29,840 nucleotides of DNA from positions 1-29,840 of the IMG/VR virus record IMGVR_UViG_3300035698_015017; one strand, 5' to 3'. Positions 961-15,455 of the stretch are shown here, in pieces. The notes under the pieces were generated by a model. The model saw only the letters and a list, made by a program, of their open reading frames with translations. It did not search any database and was not told where the DNA came from. How positions within the stretch are numbered: position 1 is the first letter of the stretch; every line of letters starts with the position of its first letter. Both the position numbers and the translations under genes were made by a program. Origin of the DNA: a virus.

Positions 961-1677
961 CTACAGCAACGGGCTGGAAAACCAGAAGGCCCGGCCCACG
1001 ACCGACTTGTCCCATTCCCGTTTTTTAATCAATGCTCGCGGAGTGCCGGAAGCCAAATTGTCAGGAACGAGAGCGATCGCATCATCACCAAACCGATAGA
1101 CCCTCTTTACCGTGCACTCGTCGCCAAGGCGCAGTGCGTAGATTTTTCCCTCGACCAGCGTGCGATCCTCGCGGTCGATTATTACAATTGCCCCGTCGTG
1201 GATCGTCGGCTCCATACTGGAGCCCTTAACTCTAACGGACACCAAATTAGATCTCCCACCAAGCATCGAGCGATGCACCACGGTCCAATCGTCAATGTCG
1301 TCGTCCACGACGCACGGAGGTCCTGCGGCGATGGCACCGGCCACTAAAGGGACGGCTAAAAATTCTGCGTCCAGCCGAGCCCTCTCTGGATGCAATTTAA
1401 TCTCGGCTAGGCCACTGAGAACGAATGGCCCAACAAGGTCAGCGTCGCGCGGAAGGTCGGAAAATTTTAACCACTCAAAGCGGACCCTAAAGGTGACGGC
1501 GATTGAATGAATCACGGCGTTTGCCGGAAACTTTGTTCCAGCCTCGATATGAGTGACGTAGGAACGCGACATGTGGATCGCGTCGGCAAACTCCTCCTGG
1601 TTTAGACCGGCACGCACACGGACCTCTCGTATGCGGTCCCCAATAGCGAGCTTAACTTTTTTGCCCCTGGTCACCAA
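961..1677 (-). CDS. Phage repressor, XRE helix-turn-helix plus S24/LexA-type autoprotease
   Basis: The 238-residue protein has an N-terminal XRE-type HTH (about residues 11-65) and a C-terminal S24 peptidase domain (about 105-235). The expected catalytic serine is S154 in the GSSMEP motif and the general base lysine is K191 in CTVKRV. A likely self-cleavage site is Ala118-Gly119, as in LexA/CI proteins. It would hold the lytic operon silent and be inactivated by RecA-stimulated self-cleavage, unlike the classical Mu repressor, which is not of this type. It is transcribed away from the early operon. The start is a TTG at 1677 or a GTG at 1674; an AAGGGG element lies just upstream. Confidence 0.88.
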   Translation of the reverse strand: MVTRGKKVKLAIGDRIREVRVRAGLNQEEFADAIHMSRSYVTHIEAGTKFPANAVIHSIAVTFRVRFEWLKFSDLPRDADLVGPFVLSGLAEIKLHPERARLDAEFLAVPLVAGAIAAGPPCVVDDDIDDWTVVHRSMLGGRSNLVSVRVKGSSMEPTIHDGAIVIIDREDRTLVEGKIYALRLGDECTVKRVYRFGDDAIALVPDNLASGTPRALIKKREWDKSVVGRAFWFSSPLL

Positions 1678-1988: not shown

Positions 1989-2430
1989 ACGAACACGAAA
2001 ATCAGATAGGGGTCCATCTGGCCAGTTGGAGTTTCCGGAGCTATCGGAAGCAAAGGCCGGGTCATTAGATCTCGACCACGAGCTGCGGGCTTGGCTGGTG
2101 CGCGCAGCGTCGCGCAGTTCGTTTAGCCGGGCGATTGTCGCCGCCCGTGTTGGCGAGCTGGTGGGGCGCACCGACCTAAGCCAAGCGGTATTCGACGCCT
2201 GGTGTGCCGAGAGCAAAGAGGGCTACCGGGTGCCGGCCGCGTACATCCCCGCGCTTTGCGTGGTGCTGAGGGACGACGGCGGGCTGCGCATCATGGCGCA
2301 GGCGCTGGGCTGCGACGTGATCGGACCACAGGAGAGGGACGCTCTAGATCTCACGCGCAAGCGGCTGCAACTCGAACGCCTGCAAGATGAAGTGCGCACG
2401 ATCGAGACCCACGTGCGGAGCCAACGTTGA
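1981..2430 (+). CDS. CII-like early regulatory protein
   Basis: The 149-residue protein overlaps the previous gene by 8 nt and has a clear AGGAGG ribosome site (1969-1974) six nt before the ATG. The centre (about residues 40-75) resembles the part of phage CII-type regulators that selects an HTH, and residues 80-110 contain the YxPAAYIPALCVVL...DDGGLRIMAQALG pattern of that group. The last 35 residues are strongly charged and probably helical, suggesting oligomerisation. It lies between the switch gene and the transposase, where many Mu-like phages carry such a regulator. The family call is by eye; its target DNA is unknown. Confidence 0.5.
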   Translation: MAKRTRKSDRGPSGQLEFPELSEAKAGSLDLDHELRAWLVRAASRSSFSRAIVAARVGELVGRTDLSQAVFDAWCAESKEGYRVPAAYIPALCVVLRDDGGLRIMAQALGCDVIGPQERDALDLTRKRLQLERLQDEVRTIETHVRSQR

Positions 2431-4442
2431 GTCATCCCGAAGCGGCTGAACGAGGAGCGTGGTTAACAACCAATCAGGTTGTCGGATTGACAGAACAGTC
2501 CTACCGAACCATCAAGCGCAAGCTCAGCGAGGGGCGCTTTGAAACGTCTGAGGCCTCAAGTACCGCAAGGGGCGGGCGGAGTGGAAAGCGAGTACTAATC
2601 GCGCTGCACAGCCTGCCGACGGCGGCGCAGAACCGGTATCACGAACAGCAGTTGCAGGCCCACCTGATTCATGAGGGGCATCTGGTTGTGGACACGCGCA
2701 CGGGCGAGGTTGTGCGCGACGACACGCCGCAGCCCACGCCCAATCTCGACGGCCTGCCAAAGGTCAAACGCACCAAGGCGCTGCGCCGGTTGCAGGTATT
2801 AAACGACTTTGAAACATGGCGCGCGGGCCGTCGCGGAAACTGGCAACAGCAGGCCGAGGATTATCTACAGCAGGCCAAGATACCAACGAGCCTCAAGCGC
2901 CCGTCGCGCCGCACGCTGTACAGATGGTGGCAGCAGTACCGCGACCAGGGACCAGCCGGGCTGATCGACAACTACGGCAACCGCGCAGGCGACTGCGTGC
3001 TGCACGAACTCGCGCAGCAGTACATCCGCGCGCTGTGGTTTGAGGGCCTGGCGGCGCGGCGATGCGCGAAGCTATACGCCCGCAAGGCGTTGGCAGTCGG
3101 GTGGCCGGCCGCATCTGACGGAACTGTCGCCAGGGTTATCAGGGAGATCCCGGACGAGGTGAGCTGCCTGATGCGAGAAGGGGAGGACGCCTGGTTTGAC
3201 AGGTATTCGTCCTATCTCGAACGGGACTACACCACGATCGCGGCCAACGATTGGTGGAACTCCGACCACGTGCAGCTCGACGCCGCGTGCCGAGGCCTGA
3301 ACGGCCGCAACATCTACCCCTGGCTGACGCTGTGGATGGACGTGCGCAGCCGGTTGATCGTCGGCTGGTGCCTGGCGCCGACGCCCTCGGGAGCGTCGAT
3401 CAACGTGGCGCTGCGCCGAGCCATCGAGCGCTACGGAGTGCCGCGCCACGTGTACCTTGACAACGGCAAGGATTACACGTCGCGCTCGTACATGGGTCAG
3501 ACGAAGCGCGGGCGGATCGTGGTCGACGAGACGACGGTGCGCGGTATTTATTCGCTGCTGGGCATCGCTCCCCACCTAGCCACAAAATACCGCCCGCGAT
3601 CCAAACCGATCGAGAGTTTAAACCGGACTTGGCACGCGCACTTTGATGTCGCGTTCCCGACCTATCGCGGGTCGGGAGTCGAACACCGTCCGGCGAAGGC
3701 CGACAAGTCCCTCAGGGCGGGAGAGGTCTACAACTGGGCCGAGATGATCCAGCTCGTGGAACAGGGCGTCGCGGAATACAACACCAACGAACACACCGGC
3801 CAGGGGATGAACAAGCGCACGCCCAACGAGGTGTATGCCGAGACGCTGACGGTGCGCGAGGTCGTGCCGGACGAGTCGGCGCTGCGATTGCTGATGATGA
3901 AGCTCGGCATCCCGCGCACGGTCCACGGCCAGGGGGTGAAGCAGTTTGATCGCTGGTACAAAGGCGATTGCTTGCTGCTGCGTGCAGGCGAGAAGGTGCA
4001 GCTCCGCTACGACCCGCAGGATATAAGCACGCTGTACGTCTACGACAAGGACGACCGTTACGTCGGCCAGGCAGTCGAGCGCGATAAGGGCGGCTGGGGC
4101 ACGACAACCGACGACCAGTACCGCGAGGCTGCGCGCGAGAACCGCCAGGCGCGCAAGGCCGCGAAACAAGCGGCACACGTGCTCAGCGGCGGCCTGCGCC
4201 TCGACGTCCGCGAGAAGGCGGGCATTACCTACATGCCGACCGATCAACCCAAAGACGATCCGCAGGTGGTGCGCATGCGGCGCGACCCGCTGTTCGAGGC
4301 CAACGCGCGGGCGATGCACGACGACGTCGAGCGCGGCAAGCGCCGAGATCGCGGAGCACGACGCGCGCAGATCCCGGTTGACGACAAAAGACCAAAGAGG
4401 CGCGACCTGTCCCAGGTCCGCTTAGTGCCGAAAAACAAGTAA
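2427..4442 (+). CDS. A: MuA-type DDE transposase
   Basis: The 671-residue product is close to Mu A (663). An N-terminal winged-helix segment (about 10-75) resembles the Mu end/enhancer-binding region and is followed by further helical DNA-binding domains. The catalytic core contains D285 (in VQLDAACRG), D345 (in VYLDNGKDY) and E396 (in KPIESLNRTWH), with spacing close to D269, D336 and E392 of Mu A. The C-terminal part is basic, fitting the Mu-type C-terminal domain and its B-contact tail. The protein should join phage ends to target DNA during integration and replicative transposition. The start is a TTG that overlaps the preceding TGA, six nt after GGAG. The B gene follows 16 nt later. Confidence 0.95.
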   Translation: MSHPEAAERGAWLTTNQVVGLTEQSYRTIKRKLSEGRFETSEASSTARGGRSGKRVLIALHSLPTAAQNRYHEQQLQAHLIHEGHLVVDTRTGEVVRDDTPQPTPNLDGLPKVKRTKALRRLQVLNDFETWRAGRRGNWQQQAEDYLQQAKIPTSLKRPSRRTLYRWWQQYRDQGPAGLIDNYGNRAGDCVLHELAQQYIRALWFEGLAARRCAKLYARKALAVGWPAASDGTVARVIREIPDEVSCLMREGEDAWFDRYSSYLERDYTTIAANDWWNSDHVQLDAACRGLNGRNIYPWLTLWMDVRSRLIVGWCLAPTPSGASINVALRRAIERYGVPRHVYLDNGKDYTSRSYMGQTKRGRIVVDETTVRGIYSLLGIAPHLATKYRPRSKPIESLNRTWHAHFDVAFPTYRGSGVEHRPAKADKSLRAGEVYNWAEMIQLVEQGVAEYNTNEHTGQGMNKRTPNEVYAETLTVREVVPDESALRLLMMKLGIPRTVHGQGVKQFDRWYKGDCLLLRAGEKVQLRYDPQDISTLYVYDKDDRYVGQAVERDKGGWGTTTDDQYREAARENRQARKAAKQAAHVLSGGLRLDVREKAGITYMPTDQPKDDPQVVRMRRDPLFEANARAMHDDVERGKRRDRGARRAQIPVDDKRPKRRDLSQVRLVPKNK

Positions 4443-4445
4443 CAA

Positions 4446-4458: not shown

Positions 4459-5520
4459 ATGGGAGAAGCAGCGACGAAGCTGGACCCACAGAAGCGCGAC
4501 AAGCCCGGCAGTCCCGGCAGGCCGAGGACGAGACCGGAGGGCGCTCCTAAGCGGGAGAACTGGGAGTCGAGGTTTGGGAAGCTGGGGCCGGACCAACAGA
4601 GGTTTGTCGACCAAGCGATCAGCGACCTGACGAGCTACGTCGCGGCCAGCGGAACGGTGCTCAATGTTGTCGCCCACTCGATGGCCAACATGTCCCATGC
4701 CAGGCTGCGGCAGTTCTACGAGCGCAAATACCCCGGCGACATCCTGCGCGTTGCGCGCCAGGTGCGGACCCACATTGAGACCGAGGCCGCGCGGGCCGAG
4801 GTCGCGCCGCGCCGGGGCCTGATCGAGACGGCGATCACTGCGCGCGTCGCCGAGGCGATGCAGGCCGCACAGCTCGACCACACGATCAACCTGATCTACG
4901 GCCCAAGCGGAATTGGTAAGAGCAGCGGGATCAAGCTGCTGCAAAAGCAAAATCCCGACTCAGTGCGGGTGGTCCATGCGCCCCTCAAACTGGGGCTGCT
5001 CGGCGCCCTACGCACCGTGGCGCGCGAGCTTAACGTGCCGCTGGCCGGGCGCTCCGAGACGCTGGCACACAACCTGATCGACCGCATCGGCGCGCAGGAA
5101 CTGACGCTGATTCTCGATGATGCGCAGCGGCTGAGCCTGGATGCGATCGAAGCACTGACCGGGATATATGACGAATGCGACAACCTGTCGATGGTGCTCT
5201 CCGGGCAGCCCGAGCTGTTCACCGCGATCTACTCGCACCGCCGTGAGGGCTACGCCCAGGTACGCAGCCGGATCAGCATGCGTGTCGATCTGGTGCGCAA
5301 CCTTGAGTCAAAGGATGTGCGCGAGATCCTCAAGCTCTCGCTGCCCGGCCTGCCCGCCGACGTATCCAACATGCTCGTCGACGAGGGGATGGTGCCCGGT
5401 CACGGGACGATCCGACGGATGCTCAATGCGGGCCGCGCGGCCGTGAGAATTGCTAAAGCCGAAGACTGCCCGCTCGACCTGGATCTGCTCCGGGACGTGC
5501 TCGAGCAGATGATCCTTTAA
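4459..5520 (+). CDS. B: MuB-type AAA+ ATPase, target-DNA selector
   Basis: The 353-residue protein has a Walker A motif GPSGIGKS at 148-155 (K154) and a Walker B motif LTLILDDAQ around D220-D221. Sensor-like residues follow in a SMVLSGQPELF segment. The N-terminal 140 residues include a basic, proline-rich leader and a probable HTH region, as in the Mu B/IstB-like group. Mu B (312 residues) polymerises on target DNA, stimulates A and gives target immunity; the same role is inferred. The extra N-terminal length is mainly a low-complexity R/P/K segment. The start is supported by a strong AAGGAGGT site. It follows A directly and should share its early transcript. Confidence 0.92.
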   Translation: MGEAATKLDPQKRDKPGSPGRPRTRPEGAPKRENWESRFGKLGPDQQRFVDQAISDLTSYVAASGTVLNVVAHSMANMSHARLRQFYERKYPGDILRVARQVRTHIETEAARAEVAPRRGLIETAITARVAEAMQAAQLDHTINLIYGPSGIGKSSGIKLLQKQNPDSVRVVHAPLKLGLLGALRTVARELNVPLAGRSETLAHNLIDRIGAQELTLILDDAQRLSLDAIEALTGIYDECDNLSMVLSGQPELFTAIYSHRREGYAQVRSRISMRVDLVRNLESKDVREILKLSLPGLPADVSNMLVDEGMVPGHGTIRRMLNAGRAAVRIAKAEDCPLDLDLLRDVLEQMIL

Positions 5521-6074: not shown

Positions 6075-6445
6075 ACGACGGCAACGACGGCAACGACCTT
6101 CTGAGCATCAACCCGATGGACGACGGCTTTCAGCGACACCTACAGCAGGTCATCTCACGCGCCGCGAGCCCGGAGCGGCCGCTGACCGCGCGCGAGCTGG
6201 CGCGGCGCATGGAGCGGCATTGTGTGAGCAAGCCGCACGAGCGCCAGGTGCGCAGGGCGATCCGCGAGCTGGTCGCGCAGAAGTTCCCCGTAGTCGGGAG
6301 CTCCCGGGGATACTACGAGGCCAACATCACCGAGCTTTGGCGTTACAAGGCCCGCCTGATTCAGGCGGGCGTCGCCCACCTCGATCGCTCCGAGGCCGTG
6401 CAGCGGGTGATCGAGGAATACTCCGGCCCGTCACTCCTGCGATGA
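6071..6445 (+). CDS. Winged-helix phage protein
   Basis: The 124-residue product is preceded by AAGGAGG four nt before ATG 6071, which I prefer to longer upstream starts. Residues about 40-90 (TARELARRM...RQVRRAIRELV...PVVGSSRGYYEA) read as a winged helix: two helices, the recognition helix, then a beta wing with a GSSRGYY turn. This pattern is common in small phage proteins that sit near replication genes. The C-terminal third is helical (LWRYKARLIQAGVAHLDRSEAV). It probably binds DNA in early regulation or replication. The stop overlaps the next ATG by 4 nt. Confidence 0.65.
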   Translation: MNDGNDGNDLLSINPMDDGFQRHLQQVISRAASPERPLTARELARRMERHCVSKPHERQVRRAIRELVAQKFPVVGSSRGYYEANITELWRYKARLIQAGVAHLDRSEAVQRVIEEYSGPSLLR

Positions 6446-6651
6446 AGTGCGGCCGCAAGACCGAGGTCTATTCGCGCGTGGTCGGCTACTACCGACCCGT
6501 GCAGCAGTGGAACAAGGGCAAGCGCGAGGAGTACGTACAGCGGCGCACGTTCCGCGCTGAGCCGGGCGGGACGGAGACCGACAACGACAAACGACGGGCC
6601 GATTTGGAGGCCTCAACGGCGAGGATCAAGTACGCCTGCGAGGCCCCCTGA
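6442..6651 (+). CDS. Stand-alone NrdD-type glycyl-radical tail domain
   Basis: The 69-residue product starts at an ATG overlapping the previous TGA. Residues 9-37 (VYSRVVGYYRPVQQW, then NKGKREEYVQRRTF) match the C-terminal glycyl-radical region of class III anaerobic ribonucleotide reductases, where the glycine of RVxGY carries the radical; here that is G15. No reductase barrel is present. The CxxC...CxxC zinc site usually just before the loop is reduced to one cysteine (C3). The last 30 residues are charged and unlike NrdD. Possible roles are a spare radical domain for host NrdD, as GrcA/YfiD provides for pyruvate formate-lyase, or a reused fold with another job. The family resemblance is strong; function is inference. 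Confidence 0.68.
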   Translation: MKCGRKTEVYSRVVGYYRPVQQWNKGKREEYVQRRTFRAEPGGTETDNDKRRADLEASTARIKYACEAP

Positions 6652-7586: not shown

Positions 7587-7885
7587 GCGCGCAGCATCGG
7601 TGTCAACGGTGCTGCTCAGCGGACGACCAGCGCACCGACCTGCGGATTAAGCTGGATTGCGTCCATGGCCAAGGGGCACCCGGTGTGTACATCGATCCCT
7701 GCCTGGCGCAGATCGTCCAGGCGCTCAATGACGCGGGAATCCCCACACGCTCAAGCTGTTGCGGGCACGGAAAAGTCGTCGGCTGCATCGCCCTCGAGGA
7801 CGGTCGCGACCTGCTGATTATGACGCGCGAGGAGTTGCTCGAATTCATGGACGCCGTGGCCCGTATGCGGCCGGGAGTGGCGTGA
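7583..7885 (+). CDS. Small cysteine-rich phage protein with CCGHGK motif
   Basis: The 100-residue product starts at an ATG overlapping the previous TGA. It has an N-terminal CQRCC cluster, then PCLAQIVQALNDAGIPTRSSCCGHGK and GCIALEDGRDLLI. The GIxTxxSCCGHGK...I.L.DGR pattern is one I have seen in many uncharacterised phage proteins, and its cysteines and histidine suggest metal binding. Enzymatic activity is unknown. It overlaps the PolX-like gene by one nt (TGATG), so the two are translationally coupled. Confidence 0.62.
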   Translation: MSAQHRCQRCCSADDQRTDLRIKLDCVHGQGAPGVYIDPCLAQIVQALNDAGIPTRSSCCGHGKVVGCIALEDGRDLLIMTREELLEFMDAVARMRPGVA

Positions 7886-8448
7886 TGAGCGCGCCCCAGG
7901 GCGCGCTGTTCCCAGGCGTACCCGCTCCTCGGCCTGCGGCCAAGGCCGCGCAGCACGAGCTGGCCGTGGCCGAGCGCGTGGCGCAGCGGCTGGTCGAGGA
8001 GCTGAGCCCGGCCTGCGATCGCATCGAGATCGCGGGCTCGATCCGCAGGCGCCGGCCACTCGTTCACGACATCGACCTTGTGCTTATGCCGCAAAGCACA
8101 AAGATCAAAGTGCAGCACTTGGTCTCGCAGTGGGCGACGGACGGCCGCTGCCGGATCATGGCTCTGGGCAGCAAGGTGCTCCGCCTACACCTGGTCAAGC
8201 CGCAGATCGACGTTGATCTCTACATCGCGTGGCCCGCGACCTGGGCGACCCTGCTGCTGATCCGCACCGGCTCCAAGGATCACAACATCGAACTGTGCTG
8301 CCGCGCAAAGGAGATGGGCTTCTCGCTTCATGCCGACGGCTCAGGCCTCGAGGACAATACAACCGGCCGCTACATCCATCCCCGCGACGTGAGCGAGATC
8401 TTCTTCCACCTGGATATGGACTACGTGCCGCCCGAGAGGAGGGACTGA
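7885..8448 (+). CDS. Minimal PolX-family nucleotidyltransferase
   Basis: The 187-residue protein carries the DNA polymerase beta-type signature. GSIRRRR at 51-57 corresponds to the GSxRRG helix, DID at 62-64 gives two metal-binding aspartates, and IDVDL around D109-D111 gives the third. RTGSKDHNIEL at 127-137 matches the TGSxxxN segment, followed by AKEMGFSL. This equals the palm and a short thumb. The lyase (8-kDa) and finger domains of Pol beta, and the PHP domain of bacterial PolX, are absent. It could fill short gaps left by strand transfer or add single nucleotides. Polymerase activity is not proven; it may be a different nucleotidyltransferase. Confidence 0.78.
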   Translation: MSAPQGALFPGVPAPRPAAKAAQHELAVAERVAQRLVEELSPACDRIEIAGSIRRRRPLVHDIDLVLMPQSTKIKVQHLVSQWATDGRCRIMALGSKVLRLHLVKPQIDVDLYIAWPATWATLLLIRTGSKDHNIELCCRAKEMGFSLHADGSGLEDNTTGRYIHPRDVSEIFFHLDMDYVPPERRD

Positions 8449-8696: not shown

Positions 8697-9055
8697 AACT
8701 ACTGCGCCGCGTCCAGGGCCAGGGACCGCTCGAGCCCGCGCAGCTAATCGCGCGCGGCACAGGCCCCGGCCCGCGAAACGTGCTCGTCGAGTTTTGCAAC
8801 GGCGAGCGAGTGATTAAAACCGGCGCCGCGTGGCGCTTCGGGGGGAAAATGAAAACGACGAAGCAGGATGTGAGGGTACTGTTGAGGTACGCGCGGCAAC
8901 TCGATCGGCAGGCGAGCGCGCACCGAGAGGCGGCCAATTGTCAGACGGCGCGTCGGGCTGCGCGCAGATTGATGGACCGCGCGACGCACTACGACATGAC
9001 GGCTCATGTAATCCGCCAAGGCCTGAGCGAGCTGGGCCTGTTGGACGCGAGCTGA
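8693..9055 (+). CDS. 120-residue phage protein, possible two-part fusion
   Basis: The GTG start overlaps the previous TGA. The first 50 residues contain GPRNVLVEFCNGERVIKTGAAWRF, a small beta module seen at the end of many short phage proteins. The second part from M53 (KTTKQDVRVLLRYARQLDRQASAHREA) is helical and basic. A separate start at ATG 8849 with a weak GGGGG element is possible, so this may be two genes fused or one continuous protein. Function unknown. Confidence 0.45.
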   Translation: MKLLRRVQGQGPLEPAQLIARGTGPGPRNVLVEFCNGERVIKTGAAWRFGGKMKTTKQDVRVLLRYARQLDRQASAHREAANCQTARRAARRLMDRATHYDMTAHVIRQGLSELGLLDAS

Positions 9056-9699
9056 TGGACCAGCGGCGCAGGCTGTACATCCGCAGCGCTACGCTGACGG
9101 CGGATCTGGCGCTGGCCGTCGGCGGCAAGGACGCTGCCGATCAGGTGCTGCGCGACATTCTGTCAGCGCGCTTTCAAGCCGAGTCGCGCAAACAACTGGA
9201 CATCTTCGATCTACACAACCTATGCGAAGACCTTGTCGACGCGCTGCACCAGGCGGGGGGGCAGCCGGGAGCCGCCAAGACCGCGCGCAAGCGGTCGGCG
9301 CGAGAGGGCGAGCGCCCGTGCACCAGCGGCAACCCGCTCCACACGATCGGCGCGGATCAGCTCGAGCTGATCGAGGCGCTGCGGAAGGTCCTGGGCTTAT
9401 CGACCAAGTACGTGCAGGGAATCTCAGTTCGCGCAACGGGGCACCCCTGGCCGCAGACGCGGCGCGAGGGCGTGATCATAATAGAGGCCCTCAAGGCCAA
9501 GTTGTTTAGGCAACTGCGCGAGCGCGGAGACGAGGTCGACCCGGCGCGCCTGCTCGATATGCGTGGCGACCTGAGCAAGTGGGAGATTGACTTCCTGCGC
9601 GACCTGCGCGGCAAAGCGCTGCGCGGAGAATCGATTAACAAACTAACGATCGGCGCGGCGATCAAACTGGCCGAGATCGCGGGGCCGCAGTCGGCATGA
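9055..9699 (+). CDS. gemA: GemA/gp16-like regulatory protein
   Basis: The 214-residue product starts at an ATG overlapping the previous TGA (TGATG). The centre, about residues 98-150, contains TIGADQLELIEALRKVLGLSTKYVQGI and then HPWPQTRREGVIIIEALKAKL. This is the pattern of the Mu gp16/GemA family (DUF1018): a Q...I..L...LGL helix followed by a tryptophan and a second helix. The family is reported to affect host gene expression and DNA supercoiling in Mu. The C-terminal part (LSKWEIDFLRDLRGKAL) is an extra helical module often seen with this family. The assignment is moderate because the N-terminal 90 residues are not typical. Confidence 0.6.
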   Translation: MDQRRRLYIRSATLTADLALAVGGKDAADQVLRDILSARFQAESRKQLDIFDLHNLCEDLVDALHQAGGQPGAAKTARKRSAREGERPCTSGNPLHTIGADQLELIEALRKVLGLSTKYVQGISVRATGHPWPQTRREGVIIIEALKAKLFRQLRERGDEVDPARLLDMRGDLSKWEIDFLRDLRGKALRGESINKLTIGAAIKLAEIAGPQSA

Positions 9700-9974
9700 G
9701 CGCGCCCCGCCCGCTGTGGGATGATCTGCCGGATAAAATGGAAGTCCGGCGCGACCCTCGCACCTACCGCCTTCCCGCCCGCGACTTTCTCACGATCGAT
9801 CAGGTTGCGGCCTACCTCGGCTGCTCCCCCAGCCACGTCCGCAATCTGGTCGATCTGGGCGATCTGGATTCAATCGACATCGCCCGCGACGGCGTCGAGC
9901 GGGCCGCCCTGCGCGTCCCGCGCCAGGCGCTGCTCGACTTCTGTGACCGACGCAAGCGCGACCCTCTTAAATAG
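9696..9974 (+). CDS. Excisionase-like helix-turn-helix protein
   Basis: The ATG overlaps the previous TGA. The 92-residue product contains LTIDQVAAYLGCSPSHVRNLVDLGDLDSIDI at about 31-62, the MerR/excisionase-type HTH, followed by a short beta wing and a LRVPRQALLDFC helix. It is the last early gene before the structured intergenic region. In Mu this position holds the middle-gene activator Mor; the protein is not Mor-like by sequence but could take over that job. DNA binding is well supported; the regulatory target is inference. Confidence 0.7.
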   Translation: MSAPRPLWDDLPDKMEVRRDPRTYRLPARDFLTIDQVAAYLGCSPSHVRNLVDLGDLDSIDIARDGVERAALRVPRQALLDFCDRRKRDPLK

Positions 9975-10225
9975 TTTCCACCGAAAACACCGACACCACC
10001 GACGCCACTGACGCTTGGTCCCCCGGCGTCCCGCCGGGCTACGGTGGACACTATGAACGGGCTCAATACCTCCTATCGATCTCTGGTTACCGGCAGCTCG
10101 GCACCTGCCGGTCAGTACCTCCTATACCTCCATATTTTGCGGAACGGTCGGGGTAAACCCGAGCCGGCCTTCGAGCCCGTAGGTCGGCGCTCCGGCCGTT
10201 CCGCACCTCCTACACCGGAGTGCGA
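9975..10225 (+). ncRNA. Structured intergenic region with four anti-SD-like ACCTCC motifs
   Basis: No gene is credible here. Perfect hairpins occur at 10022-10038 (CCCGGCG-TCC-CGCCGGG) and 10089-10112 (ACCGGCAG / CTGCCGGT). A larger folded unit at 10141-10202 is closed by GGAACGG/CCGTTCC and contains an inner stem TCGGG/CCCGA and a second stem GCCGGCC/GGTCGGC with one G-U pair. Between these lie ACCTCC copies: TACCTCCTAT at 10067 and 10116, ACCTCC at 10126, and CACCTCCTAC at 10204. ACCTCC is the anti-Shine-Dalgarno sequence. A regulatory RNA, a long leader of the late operon, or repeated activator-binding DNA are all possible. Confidence 0.35.
10067..10213. repeat. Four direct repeats of (T)ACCTCCTA
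   Basis: TACCTCCTAT occurs exactly at 10067-10076 and 10116-10125. A near copy TACCTCCATAT overlaps at 10125-10135, and CACCTCCTAC lies at 10204-10213. They fall between, not within, the stems described for this region. The last copy could also pair with the GGAG ribosome site (10217-10220) of the next gene. Confidence 0.7.
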
Positions 10226-10588
10226 ATGAACCTCCCCGCCAACGTCTACACCGTGGCCCTGATGTGGGGTCCGGGGATTCTGATCCTGGCCGGACTGTAC
10301 GCGATCATCCGGCCGATTAGTCGGAGGCTCACTGATGCACGCATTCAGCACGACAACCGTCTGGTCGGCGCGTTCGAGCAACAGGCCGCTGCGATCGACC
10401 GACTGAGCCGGGGATTCGAGGAGCACATACACCACGACCGCGAGGAACGCAGAAGCTTGATGATTGCGATCCGCGCGCAGAACGGAGACATCCGCGACCT
10501 GTCAGAGCGGCTCAACCTGATATTGCTCAGAGAAGGTTGTTCCCCGCCTGCGGCCACAAATAGAAAACAGGAGGCCGCCAATGGCTAA
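10226..10588 (+). CDS. Membrane-anchored DUF2730-like phage protein
   Basis: ATG 10226 is preferred because CGGAG lies five nt upstream. The 120-residue product has one transmembrane helix (about residues 9-32, VALMWGPGILILAGLYAII), a basic stop-transfer RRL, then a helical coiled-coil-like domain ending in a cysteine- and proline-containing tail. A small protein of this shape precedes the small terminase genes in many Mu-like phages (DUF2730 group, near Mu gp25). Role unknown; holin function is possible but not supported by number of membrane spans. Its stop overlaps the next start in ATGGCTAA. Confidence 0.6.
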   Translation: MNLPANVYTVALMWGPGILILAGLYAIIRPISRRLTDARIQHDNRLVGAFEQQAAAIDRLSRGFEEHIHHDREERRSLMIAIRAQNGDIRDLSERLNLILLREGCSPPAATNRKQEAANG

Positions 10589-10901
10589 GTCCACCAAACC
10601 GTTCGAGCGCGGACGAATTATACGCGCACTGTATCTGGCGCGGGGGGACTCGGAAAGCAACGAGGTCGCGTTCCAGGTACTGCACTCGACGCTGGATCTA
10701 TGGGGCTTCCCGGTGCACACCGATGATCTCGATACCGAGCTGCTCTATCTCGAGGATTCCGGCCTGGTGGCGCTGCGCCGCATCGACGATCACGGCCGCA
10801 GCACGTGGGCCGTCAAGCTGACCCCGACCGGCGTCGACATCCACGAGAAGACCGTGGACGCTCCGCCGGGCGTCGTCGTCGTACGCCTCAAAGGGGAATA
10901 G
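10581..10901 (+). CDS. Winged-helix protein, gp26-like position
   Basis: AGGAGG lies seven nt before ATG 10581. The 106-residue product resembles an ArsR/winged-helix fold: FERGRIIRALYLARGD, then a LLYLEDSGLVALRR recognition region and a TWAVKLTPTGVDIHEK wing. It lies between the DUF2730-like gene and the small terminase, the place of Mu gp26 and of similar small winged-helix proteins in related phages. A role in packaging regulation is possible; no more can be said. Confidence 0.62.
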   Translation: MAKSTKPFERGRIIRALYLARGDSESNEVAFQVLHSTLDLWGFPVHTDDLDTELLYLEDSGLVALRRIDDHGRSTWAVKLTPTGVDIHEKTVDAPPGVVVVRLKGE

Positions 10902-10907
10902 ACCTCG

Positions 10908-11516
10908 ATGCGCAAACGCCGCCCCTCCTCGATCGACGCGCTCGGAATCGATGGGCAGCTGCTCGTCGACTCGATGCTGTTCGGCGAGCCGTCGGCAACG
11001 CTGAGGCGGATCATCGAGGCGGTGCGCGAACAGTGCGACGAGGTGGTGACGGTCTCGGCGTTGACTCGCTACCGCGTGGCGCGCGGGGCCGAGCTGCGCG
11101 AAAAGGAGGCGCTTGTAAAACGCGCGTTGCTTGAAAGCCGGGGACTGATCGCGGCGCTGAAGGACGGCAGCGCAGACGCGACCACGCTTGTGAGCAGCCT
11201 GGTGCTCGAGGGCATACTGCAAAGCGAGCAGGAGCTGCGCGAGACCGAGCCGATCAAATTGGTCGGCGCCCTGGCGCGACTGAAAAAGATCGACAACGAG
11301 AATAAACGGCTGCAAGCCAGGCTCGCGGGCGACGGGCAAGGCGAGACCGACCTGCGCGCGGTATTCACGGCGGCGGCAAAGGCCGTGCTCGACGCGCTCG
11401 ACGGCTATTCCGAGCTGCGGCCGCTGCTGCGCAAGTATCAGCGGAACATCTCCGCGCGTCTGGCCGCCGACGCCGAGCGCTTCGACGCTCCGGCTGCCGG
11501 GATTGCGAATGGCTAA
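10908..11516 (+). CDS. Small terminase subunit, DUF3486/Mu gp27-like
   Basis: The 202-residue product starts with basic RKRRPSSIDAL, typical of the family, and is followed by an HTH-like region (about 28-60) and a long charged helix. It lies directly upstream of the large terminase and overlaps it by 8 nt, with the recurrent ATGGCTAA junction. Mu gp27 family proteins recognise the phage end for headful packaging; the same is inferred. The ribosome site AAGGGG is modest. Confidence 0.75.
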   Translation: MRKRRPSSIDALGIDGQLLVDSMLFGEPSATLRRIIEAVREQCDEVVTVSALTRYRVARGAELREKEALVKRALLESRGLIAALKDGSADATTLVSSLVLEGILQSEQELRETEPIKLVGALARLKKIDNENKRLQARLAGDGQGETDLRAVFTAAAKAVLDALDGYSELRPLLRKYQRNISARLAADAERFDAPAAGIANG

Positions 11517-13116
11517 ACGCACCGCGCCCCGCGCCGACAGGCTGCGCGCCGCGCGGCAACTATTCCGCACGCTGATCGCGGGCGACGATGATCTGCTAAA
11601 CCTGCGCGGCGCTTCGCAGCGCGAGCTGCTCAAGCTCTACGACGACGCGCTGGCGATCGCGGAGTGGGCGTTAAAGTTCTGCGGCCACCTGATCCGCGAC
11701 CAGCGCACCGGCCGCACCGTGCCGTTTGCCAAGGTTCACAAGCTGCTGTTCGCGGTGCTGCTCACGCAGCAGCGCGTGCTGGCGGTGCTGCCGCGCGGCT
11801 TCGGCAAAAGCACAATCTGCACCACGATCTACCCGCTGTATCTCGCCTGTGAAAAACGCGCACGCTACATCATGGTCGGCTCGTTTGCCGCGTACAACGC
11901 GAGCAAATTCCTGGGCAACATCCGCGAGGAGATGGAGTCCAACGCCGCGATAAGTGCGGCCTACGGCGACCAGAAAACGATGGATGGCAAGTGGACCGAC
12001 GAGCTGATCGAGACCAGCGACGGCGTGGTGATCGAGGCGATCTACTACGGCAAGGCTGCCGTGCGCGGCGCGTTGCGCAACGGCATGCGCCCCGAGGTCG
12101 TGATCGTCGACGACCTGGAGACTAAGGAGGAGGCCCGCAATCCCGAGCGCGTGCAGCAGGTGCTCAACTGGATTGACGACGAGCTGGCCAAGCTCTACCT
12201 CGACGTGCAGATCATTGTGGTCGGCACGATCCTCGCCGACGGCTCGGCGATCCACCAACTGATCGAGCGCGCCGAGGGCGAGCAAAGCCTGGAGAGCGCG
12301 GGCCTGCCCATCAGCCCCGGACGCTGGCGCCTGGTGATGGTCGAGGCCTGCGACGCCGAGTTCGGCAACCTGGCCTGGCCTGAATATTTCAGCGAGCAGG
12401 TGCTGCGGCGCATGGCCGCCGACAACCCGGAGAGTTTCGACCAGGAGATGCGCCACCTGCCGCGCTCGCGCAAGCAGCGCGCGTTTCACACGTTCCACTA
12501 CTTTGACCCCGACGACCTGGCCAAGGGCAACCTGAACATCGTGCGCATCGTCAATTATCTCGACCTGATCCCCGGCATCGGCGAGGGGCGCACGCGCCGG
12601 GGCGACACGGACTACTACGCCCGCACGCACGTGGGCGAGACCGACGACGGCCGACTGCTGGTGCTCGAGGCCTACCGCGAACGCGACCTGACTAAGTCGC
12701 AGATGATCGCCGACGCGCTGGTCGCGCACCAGCGTTGGCAGCGCCGCGACGCGGGGCTGCGCATCGGCTGCGAGGCTAACGTGTTCCAAGTCTGGTTCGC
12801 GGACGAGCTGCGCGAGGTCGGCAGCGAGCAGGGCCTGTATCCGGCCGTCGACGCGGTCAGGGCCGTGGGCAACAAGGTTGATCGCATCCTGAGCCTGGAC
12901 CACCTGGTCAACACCGGCCGGCTGCTGTTTATCGAGGACTGCCCGTTCCAGCGCGTTTTGCGCGAGGAGCTAAAGCGCATCGGCACGCGCTTTCACGACG
13001 ACCTGGCCGACACGCTGTCCGGCTGCGTAACGCAAGTGCGGACCAGCCCGCGACTGCCGCAGGATATTGAGATCTGCGGCGAACGCTCCTGGGGCCGCGC
13101 GGCGAGGGGCTTCTGA
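11509..13116 (+). CDS. Large terminase subunit, Mu gp28-like
   Basis: From ATG 11509 the protein is 535 residues; an in-frame TTG six nt upstream is an alternative start. The ATPase domain has a Walker A variant LPRGFGKST at 95-102 (K100) and a Walker B motif VVIVDDLE with D201, D202 and E204. The C-terminal half (from about 345) contains the acidic residues expected of the RNase H-like nuclease, including the YLDLIPGIGE and GDTDYYA region and a late DDLADTLSGC segment. It should translocate and cut DNA during packaging. The stop overlaps the portal start (TGATG). Confidence 0.9.
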   Translation: MAKRTAPRADRLRAARQLFRTLIAGDDDLLNLRGASQRELLKLYDDALAIAEWALKFCGHLIRDQRTGRTVPFAKVHKLLFAVLLTQQRVLAVLPRGFGKSTICTTIYPLYLACEKRARYIMVGSFAAYNASKFLGNIREEMESNAAISAAYGDQKTMDGKWTDELIETSDGVVIEAIYYGKAAVRGALRNGMRPEVVIVDDLETKEEARNPERVQQVLNWIDDELAKLYLDVQIIVVGTILADGSAIHQLIERAEGEQSLESAGLPISPGRWRLVMVEACDAEFGNLAWPEYFSEQVLRRMAADNPESFDQEMRHLPRSRKQRAFHTFHYFDPDDLAKGNLNIVRIVNYLDLIPGIGEGRTRRGDTDYYARTHVGETDDGRLLVLEAYRERDLTKSQMIADALVAHQRWQRRDAGLRIGCEANVFQVWFADELREVGSEQGLYPAVDAVRAVGNKVDRILSLDHLVNTGRLLFIEDCPFQRVLREELKRIGTRFHDDLADTLSGCVTQVRTSPRLPQDIEICGERSWGRAARGF

Positions 13117-15455
13117 TGGGCGCGCGCGAGGCGTTCCAGCGCACGGTGCGCAAGCTGGCCGGCATCGAGGTTGCGCCACAGGGCCGCGAGATGCGCGACC
13201 GCCGACCGGCCGACTCCGCGCTTAACCCCTCGACCTTGACCTCGGCGCTACGCAACGCCGATCAGGGCGAGATCTCGCAGTTGCAGTATATGGGCGAGGA
13301 GTCGCTGACCAAGTTCACGCACCTGGCGTCGGTTGTAGAGACGCGTCGCCTGAAAGTTCTCGGCACTCCGTGGAGCATCGAGCCGTCCGACCTTGAGGAC
13401 GCGCGCGCCGTGGAGATCGCCCAGGACGTGGAGCAGCGCATCCGCCGGATCAAGGGAGTCGAGCGGGCGCTGGAGCAACTGACGTATGCGCCGTTCGCGG
13501 GCTTTGCCTGGGCCGAGATGATGTGGAGCCCCGAGGGCCTGGCCGAGCTGCGGCCGCGATCCAACACGCAACTGTGCATCGACCGCCTGGCCGACGGCGA
13601 GGAACTGCGGCTGTATCGCACGTTCGACCCGCACGGCGAGCCGCTCGAGCCGCTCAAGGCTCTGATCCACTCCCGCCCGCAGCACGGGTCGCTGTTGCGC
13701 GCGGGCCTGATCCGCCCGGCGCTGTGGCTGCACGCGCTGTGGACGTTCAACCTGATGCAGTGGGCCTCGATCGTCGAGGCCTACGGACACCCGATCCGCA
13801 TCGGCAAGTACACTCGTACCGCCTCGCCCAAAGATATCCAGGTGCTCAAGGACGCGGTGCTGCGCATGGCGCGGGCGCAGGGCGCGGTGATCAGCGAGAC
13901 GACCGAGATTGAATTTCAGCACGCGCTGCAATCGGGCTCGTCCGTACTGCCACTTTCATTTCACAAGGCGCTTGACACCGAGGCGAGCAAGCTGGTCCTC
14001 GGGCAAACCGAGACCACCGAGAGCAGCGGTTCGTCGGGCTATGCCCAGGCCAAAGTGCATGAGGGCGTGCGCGAGGACCGTTGGATTGCAGACTGCGGCT
14101 CGCTCGCGGGCGACCTGACCGGCGACGCGACCGGCGGCCTGGTGGTTCCGCTGACGATTTATCACCACGGCGAGCAGGAGCTTTATCCGTACTGGCATTT
14201 TCACACCGAGCCGCCCGAGGACGAGACCGCCAAAATCGAGCGCCAGCAAAAGCGCGCGACCGTGCTGCGCAACGCGGCTGACCTGGGGGCGGACGTGACG
14301 ATCGCGCAGGTGCGTGAAGAGCTGGAGATCCGCGAGCGTCGGGGCGGCGAGCCGATCGTGGACGTGACAGCACCTGTTCCGGCGCCGGGGTCGGCGCAAC
14401 AAAATCAATTGCAACGCAACAGCCAAGCACGATTGTGGGATCTCGAGGGCAGTCAAACGGGGCTCGGGACGCGGGCGCATCGGTGGGGATCGCCCATATC
14501 AACACTCTATAAGCTGAGCCTCGACGAGCAGGTCAAGCTGCTGGCGCAGGACGCGGGGCGTTCGGACGAGCACGCGGCAATCGATCTGCTCGTGCCGACG
14601 TTCGCCGATCGCGCGCGGCCGTTCTATCAGGACCGCTGCGAGCAGTTGATCGAGTACGCGGCCAAACGCTTCGACGCGCTGGCCGAGCTCGATTTGCAAC
14701 ACACCACGCCGGACTACCCCAGCGGGCACGTGTTCCGCACCCACTTCGCCGGGCTTCTGGGTATCGGCTACCAACTCGGCGCGCTCGACGGCGTGGGCCA
14801 GGTGCAGGACGAGACCGGCGTGCGGATTATCGAGCTGGCGCAGGGCAAGATCCCGCCGCACATCGAGTGGGCGGCGCTGCCCCCGGAGGAGGCGCTCGAA
14901 CATCTGCGCGGGCAGCTCGCGCTGCAACGTTCTGACTACGAGGCGCTCGAGGGCGTGGCGCGGCGCAAGGCGTTTGTGATCGGCGACTACGAGGACCAGG
15001 CGCTGGTGCAGGAGCTGCACGGCGAGCTGGTGCGCGTGGTGCAGGAGGGCGGCACGGCGCGCGACTTCCGCAAGGCCGCCGAGGAGCGGTACGGCCGCAA
15101 AATCGACAGCGAGCAGCGGCGCTACCACGACTTCGTGTTCCGGCAAAACCTCGACACGGCGCTGAGCTACGGGCGGTTCAAATCGCAAAGCTCGCCGTCG
15201 GTGACCGCGCTGCTGCCGTGGTGGGAATATCAATCGATCCTCGACGATTCGACGACCGAGATCTGCGTGCATCTGCACCAGTTCACCGCGCGCCACGATG
15301 ATCCGGCCTGGGGGTCGATCTACCCGCCCAACCATTTCCAGTGCCGCGCCCTGGTGCGCGCCAGCACTCAGGGCGAGCAGATGCGGCTCCCATCCGACAT
15401 CGTGCCGGCGCGTGGATTCGACGGCAGCCCGGCGGATTTTATGGAGGTAGCGTGA
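13116..15455 (+). CDS. Portal (DUF935, gp29-like) fused to Mu F-like head morphogenesis domain
   Basis: The 779-residue protein is too long for a portal alone (Mu gp29 is 512). Residues about 25-420 resemble the DUF935 portal: EESLTKFTHLASVVETRRLKVLGTPWSIEP, later TFNLMQWASIVEAYGHPIRIGKY and ADCGSLAGDLTGDATGG. A proline/glutamine-rich linker near 420-455 leads to a C-terminal part resembling Mu gp30/F: RRKAFVIGDYED, a FRQNLDTALSYGRFKSQ helix and a YPPNHFQCRALVR end. The frame is continuous with no stop or second start between them. It should form the DNA-entry ring and bring the F minor head protein with it. Confidence 0.85.
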   Translation: MGAREAFQRTVRKLAGIEVAPQGREMRDRRPADSALNPSTLTSALRNADQGEISQLQYMGEESLTKFTHLASVVETRRLKVLGTPWSIEPSDLEDARAVEIAQDVEQRIRRIKGVERALEQLTYAPFAGFAWAEMMWSPEGLAELRPRSNTQLCIDRLADGEELRLYRTFDPHGEPLEPLKALIHSRPQHGSLLRAGLIRPALWLHALWTFNLMQWASIVEAYGHPIRIGKYTRTASPKDIQVLKDAVLRMARAQGAVISETTEIEFQHALQSGSSVLPLSFHKALDTEASKLVLGQTETTESSGSSGYAQAKVHEGVREDRWIADCGSLAGDLTGDATGGLVVPLTIYHHGEQELYPYWHFHTEPPEDETAKIERQQKRATVLRNAADLGADVTIAQVREELEIRERRGGEPIVDVTAPVPAPGSAQQNQLQRNSQARLWDLEGSQTGLGTRAHRWGSPISTLYKLSLDEQVKLLAQDAGRSDEHAAIDLLVPTFADRARPFYQDRCEQLIEYAAKRFDALAELDLQHTTPDYPSGHVFRTHFAGLLGIGYQLGALDGVGQVQDETGVRIIELAQGKIPPHIEWAALPPEEALEHLRGQLALQRSDYEALEGVARRKAFVIGDYEDQALVQELHGELVRVVQEGGTARDFRKAAEERYGRKIDSEQRRYHDFVFRQNLDTALSYGRFKSQSSPSVTALLPWWEYQSILDDSTTEICVHLHQFTARHDDPAWGSIYPPNHFQCRALVRASTQGEQMRLPSDIVPARGFDGSPADFMEVA

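Follow-up and report, generated by a model that had tools for sequence, protein, structure and literature searches.

At the Pm promoter of phage Mu, the protein Mor acts from a dyad whose centre lies at -43.5 (PMC4287176). BldC, a member of the HTH_17 family, sits head to tail on direct repeats of 9 bp (PMC5859096), and a common fold joins it to RdfS and Pukovnik Xis (PMC11963761). On the RNA side, the alpha-r14 small RNAs (NfeR1 and SmelA075, with loops CCUCCUCCC) carry identical anti-Shine-Dalgarno (anti-SD) motifs that stay unpaired between differing stems (PMC10746234), and the put RNA of HK022, two stems in about 70 nt in early operons, is a precedent for an element working as nascent RNA (PMC9378689). 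Which of these systems does a repeat-rich, folded gap between the early and late genes of a Mu-like phage resemble? And would it work as DNA, as RNA or as both?

The window, i.e. the whole stretch of DNA analysed, is the complete virus record IMGVR_UViG_3300035698_015017 (positions 1-29,840; 29,840 bases). The phage is a Mu-like transposable phage (Table 1), with a head protease and a major head protein encoded downstream of the portal gene. A gap of 251 nt (9975-10225) separates the early block (GemA/gp16-HTH_17) from the late packaging and head genes, a region of ~19 kb, and the middle/late switch of Mu-like phages sits at this same genome position. The product of the first gene past the gap (gene 10226) has a relative at 30% in one other locus (L324), encoded ~1.4 kb upstream of the TerL gene of that locus. 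Elsewhere in the record, a free-standing protein of 69 aa (6442-6651, +) matches only the C-terminal 36 residues of the anaerobic ribonucleotide reductase NrdD and carries the RVxGY glycyl-radical loop (PF13597, 3.9e-10; TIGR02487, 2.1e-9); GrcA is a spare glycyl-radical domain for pyruvate formate-lyase, and by analogy this NrdD-end protein could be a spare domain of the GrcA kind. The early region also encodes a free-standing PolX-like polymerase beta palm/thumb protein (7885-8448, +; PF14791, 8.1e-12; NF006375, 2.5e-17), and an AT-rich palindrome, AATAATGTTGAATAACATTATT, lies at 59-80, near the left end of the record.

The gap is non-coding, none of its six frames reaching the codon score of real genes. 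An ORF of 61 aa (10044-10229) with an ATGA overlap with gene 10226 was rejected as a gene, its GC content being flat by codon position (0.63/0.58/0.61), and the motifs described below were rejected as ribosome-binding sites of the minus strand, where no fitting start codon lies at the usual distance. The sequence-only reading had pointed to four ACCTCC motifs among strong hairpins, and this description holds: on the + strand the motif starts at 10068, 10117, 10126 and 10205, and a fifth time at 10230, barely inside gene 10226, and the + strand of the gap folds with a minimum free energy of -106.4 kcal/mol (z -4.55 versus shuffles, against a weaker -2.19 for the - strand). All three occurrences of ACCTCCTA in the window fall inside the gap (expected 0.14). 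Dinucleotide shuffling of the gap gave four ACCTCC in none of 5000 sequences, and in 3.4% of the same shuffles some 6-mer of any kind reached four copies. Copies 1 and 2 lie in direct repeats of 14 nt that differ at one base (10063-10076 versus 10112-10125), a repeat that arises in 0.8% of gap shuffles, and the two copies have TCARTACCTCCTAT in common, more than pairing with an SD requires. Copies 2 and 3 are 9 bp apart and identical at 7/9 bases; copies 2 and 4 each come straight after a stem, with a 28-nt direct repeat at 79% between them. The array of 9-bp units at 9978-10012 matches itself at lag 9 in 22/26 positions, equalled by 0/3000 shuffles at any lag of 6-13. The repeat-rich gap is a real feature. 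In one frame, which has no usual start codon, the array would translate as TDTTDATD.

Table 1. Genes and DNA or RNA features of the window, with the basis of each call
Feature	Position	Strand	Basis or remark
S24 repressor	961-1677	-	protein-family search
MuA	2427-4442		protein-family search
MuB	4459-5520		protein-family search
GemA, weak match	9055-9699		protein-family search
HTH_17 (excisionase/MerR-like) protein, 92 aa, proposed regulator	9696-9974	+	PF12728, 1.9e-8
Tandem array, 9-bp unit, 3.9 copies of CCACCGACA	9978-10012
GC-rich hairpin CCCGGCG-tcc-CGCCGGG, without T-run	10021-10038	+	fold prediction
ACCTCC copy 1, TCAATACCTCCTAT, first half of 14-nt repeat	10063-10076	+	mean unpaired 0.71
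Segment predicted to hide the SD of gene 10226	10080-10086	+	pairing probability 0.93 with 10217-10220
Perfect dyad ACCGGCAG-N8-CTGCCGGT, RNA hairpin or DNA dyad	10089-10112		centre 10100.5
ACCTCC copy 2, TCAGTACCTCCTAT, holds 12-nt complement of 5542 ribosome site	10112-10125	+	mean unpaired 0.91
ACCTCC copy 3, TACCTCCAT, 9 bp past copy 2	10125-10133	+	mean unpaired 0.91
CATATT, weak -10-like hexamer, speculative	10131-10136	+	by-eye reading of sequence and AT profile
Large branched hairpin, TGCGGAACGG ... CCGTTCCGCA	10138-10205	+	fold prediction and repeat search
ACCTCC copy 4, CACCTCCTAC	10204-10213	+	mean unpaired 0.89
GGAG, SD of gene 10226, predicted fully paired	10217-10220	+	unpaired probability 0.00
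Gene 10226, first past the gap, small protein with single membrane span	10226-10588	+
TerL	11503-13116		protein-family search
Portal	13116-15455		protein-family search

What would such a region do? Most likely it is a cis-acting control region at the early/late boundary of the late operon, a reading favoured because the gap lies at the usual switch position of Mu-like phages, is non-coding, and holds an array and a motif cluster that are both beyond shuffles. The fuller version, in which operator sites for the HTH_17 protein are combined with a folded leader masking the SD of gene 10226, is put forward tentatively, with somewhat less than even confidence. The HTH_17 protein would take the place of Mor as late activator and would bind the direct repeats, namely the array and the ACCTCCTA copies (2 and 3 at 9 bp); we infer this binding as well as the position of the promoter. 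Binding would turn on the late operon, whose transcript would carry a strongly folded leader in which the SD of gene 10226 stays paired up to the onset of translation. The earlier suggestion that the motifs are repeated sites of a late activator stays live, and so does the involvement of the GGAG at 10217, the SD for this gene.

The HTH_17 family takes in excisionases and BldC-like regulators; the protein encoded next to the gap matches the excise family TIGR01764 at 7.9e-6, just under the cut-off, and its best PDB match is Pukovnik Xis (4j2n), at a non-significant E of 0.39. Direct repeats at 9 bp, as expected of an HTH_17 operator, are found both in the array and in the pair formed by copies 2 and 3. 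The locus is like the BldC, RdfS and Xis operators in placing a small single-domain HTH_17 protein beside 9-bp direct repeats, but the half-site of BldC is AATTNNNN(C), whereas the repeats of the window are ACCGACACC and TACCTCCTA and are putative binding sites. As the array differs in sequence from the ACCTCC motif, one protein need not bind both. Counted against operator sites are the irregular spacing of the ACCTCC copies (49, 9 and 79) and the outcome of a consensus scan of 9700-10600, of sigma-70 type only, which found no sigma-70 promoter. The same stretch gave no + strand T-run terminator.

The comparison with the middle and late promoters Pm and Plys of Mu, and with their activators Mor and C, goes both ways. 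The gap is alike in its position, after GemA and a gene for a small DNA-binding protein and ahead of the late genes, and may be alike in its dyad close to a weak, putative -10-like hexamer with no -35. It differs in its direct-repeat arrays, in the 250-nt folded gap, and in the putative activator gene: the Pfam, PHROGs and NCBIfam matches include no Mor/C-family gene beside the gap, the neighbour being HTH_17/excisionase-like. The -10-like hexamer falls in an AT-rich island (10123-10137), and the consensus promoter scan did not pick it. The dyad centre comes to -43.5 if +1 is set at 10144, a start chosen to fit rather than mapped and no evidence by itself.

Does the arrangement recur in other phages? 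Megablast found no nucleotide relatives in phages, blastn gave one short chance match, and in plasmids only the 9-bp array drew matches, all short and of chance level. Searches with single protein sequences (the 10226 protein, TerL, MuB, MuA) brought up no relative. Alignment scans gave MuA relatives of 33-35% at best and a TerL match of 37% over a short segment; TerL had no match in Myxococcota and relatives of about 30% in Desulfobacterota prophages. When viral contigs were scanned for paired TACCTCCTA as a DNA pattern, the matches listed and examined were either repeats internal to long frames or sites with two copies, and in none did a third copy lie in non-coding sequence. Among 236 related loci that were screened, no non-coding gap holds an ACCTCC cluster; loose CCTCC clusters on the + side occur in two prophages and by eye are unlike the element of the window. 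Two very distant loci have the same gene order as the window. One of them (L040), among the best MuA matches over most of the protein, has a Mor-like helix-turn-helix gene (by our reading of the translation) at the HTH_17 position, then a plain hairpin-T-run terminator, and its corresponding gap contains no ACCTCC; the other (L149) also has a Mor-like gene and a plain terminator there, in a folded gap of 94 nt. Within the collections searched, from which very near records may be absent, the element is found in one genome only, and closer relatives may exist. The distant Mu-like phages or prophages L355, L294 and phiRTG5 likewise carry HTH_17-like genes close to their late block, with no such array or element beside them. 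As a separate observation made by eye, small HTH_17-like genes lie directly ahead of packaging genes in L294 (5651-5840, +) and L291 (about 2391-2210, -), both prophages from the L142 phylum sample, which suggests that proteins of this family are a recurrent presence where early genes give way to late ones.

Could the gap instead work chiefly as RNA? If late transcription crosses the gap from end to end, a leader acting in cis might hold the SD of gene 10226 in a helix (10080-10086/10214-10220), while the exposed ACCUCCUA linkers would dock a phage or host factor or pair with the SD alternatively, switching translation on or off. We regard this model as doubtful, though next in likelihood to the operator one. 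It fits the stronger fold of the + strand and the predicted pairing of the SD, whose main partner is 10081-10084 (0.93), and it fits the placing of the ACCTCC copies in predicted single-stranded linkers, two of them right after stems. Their mean exposure is 0.84 versus 0.56 +/- 0.11 in shuffled sequences, reached by 0/300, in a control that kept the motifs and the SD and shuffled all else base by base, so that the flanks fold into weaker hairpins than the real ones. This exposure argues against a pure DNA site, which would not need it. The pairing of the SD, however, is ordinary among the same shuffles (P 0.22). The sequence-only reading had gone further, with a late RNA that could shut off early genes by masking their ribosome sites. 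A trans-acting small RNA of this kind would expose CCUCC linkers and mask phage or host ribosome sites in the manner of alpha-r14, which the gap resembles in repeating an identical anti-SD motif, predicted to be unpaired, between unlike strong stems; it differs in carrying ACCUCCUA in linkers and not in apical loops, and in being an element of a phage intergenic gap with neither a terminator nor an Rfam match (nothing at gathering score, two chance-level matches at a relaxed threshold). The complementarity that had been noted is there: AGGAGGTACT is found at 4445 and 5531, and the complement of the B ribosome site measures 10 nt, while that of the 5542 site runs to 12 nt and not 11 (TCAGTACCTCCT, 10112-10123) and is the longest for any of the gene starts, which were listed by hand from the ORF table. 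Late gene 15455 has a further match of 10 nt (TACCTCCATA, in copy 3). All of these amount to pairing potential only. The claim that the TACT extension exceeds chance does not hold up, as matches of at least 12 nt arise in 46/1000 sequences when the cores ACCTCCT/ACCTCC are kept and the flanks shuffled, and 29/600 flank shuffles (4.8%) yield at least three gene starts matching at least 10 nt, which leaves the longer complementarity at the margin of significance (P about 0.05). Nor is a specific shut-off of early genes upheld: the late sites of 15455 and 16666 (the latter with an 8-nt match) match equally, and no promoter or T-run terminator delimits a small RNA. The strong SDs at 4445, 5531 and 16658 are AAGGAGG, for which full pairing calls for ACCTCCTT, but three of the four copies are ACCTCCTA, with a conserved eighth base, A after ACCTCCT, that mismatches the A ahead of AGGAGG at all three sites. 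This shared mismatch argues that the copies are kept alike by something other than these ribosome sites. No such RNA was found in the relatives, which are very distant. The repeats more probably mark a late-gene switch than an early-gene shut-off RNA, and a trans-acting anti-SD RNA seems improbable; quite improbable is a phage-encoded RNA that mimics the ribosome tail, with four exposed anti-SD linkers, and reprograms late-phase translation. We know of no phage-borne RNA of multi-anti-SD design.

An element that modifies RNA polymerase or prevents termination (put- or nut-like) would also be at home at the head of a late operon, and the row of strong hairpins without T-runs directly ahead of the late region recalls the strong hairpins with which put RNA heads a long phage operon. 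The likeness is one of layout, and put is smaller and of another shape; no antiterminator protein was recognised, no feature of the gap specifically predicts such an element, and we judge it very improbable here. Might the gap be an ordinary one, and its ACCTCC cluster no more than an accident or the remains of decayed sequence? No close relative was found in which it could be seen conserved, the examined pattern matches were coding repeats or paired sites, and some 6-mer does reach four copies in a small share of shuffles. Against this stand the shuffle results for ACCTCC itself, for the 14-nt repeat and for the exposure of the motifs, and we judge chance or decay unlikely.

What would each outcome mean? 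Were the trans-RNA reading true, it would reveal a new means by which a phage silences its early translation. If the favoured cis-control reading is true, this phage line has exchanged the Mor/C late activator of Mu for a filament-forming protein of the Xis/BldC type acting on direct repeats, a swap that would show how transposable phages exchange late switches.
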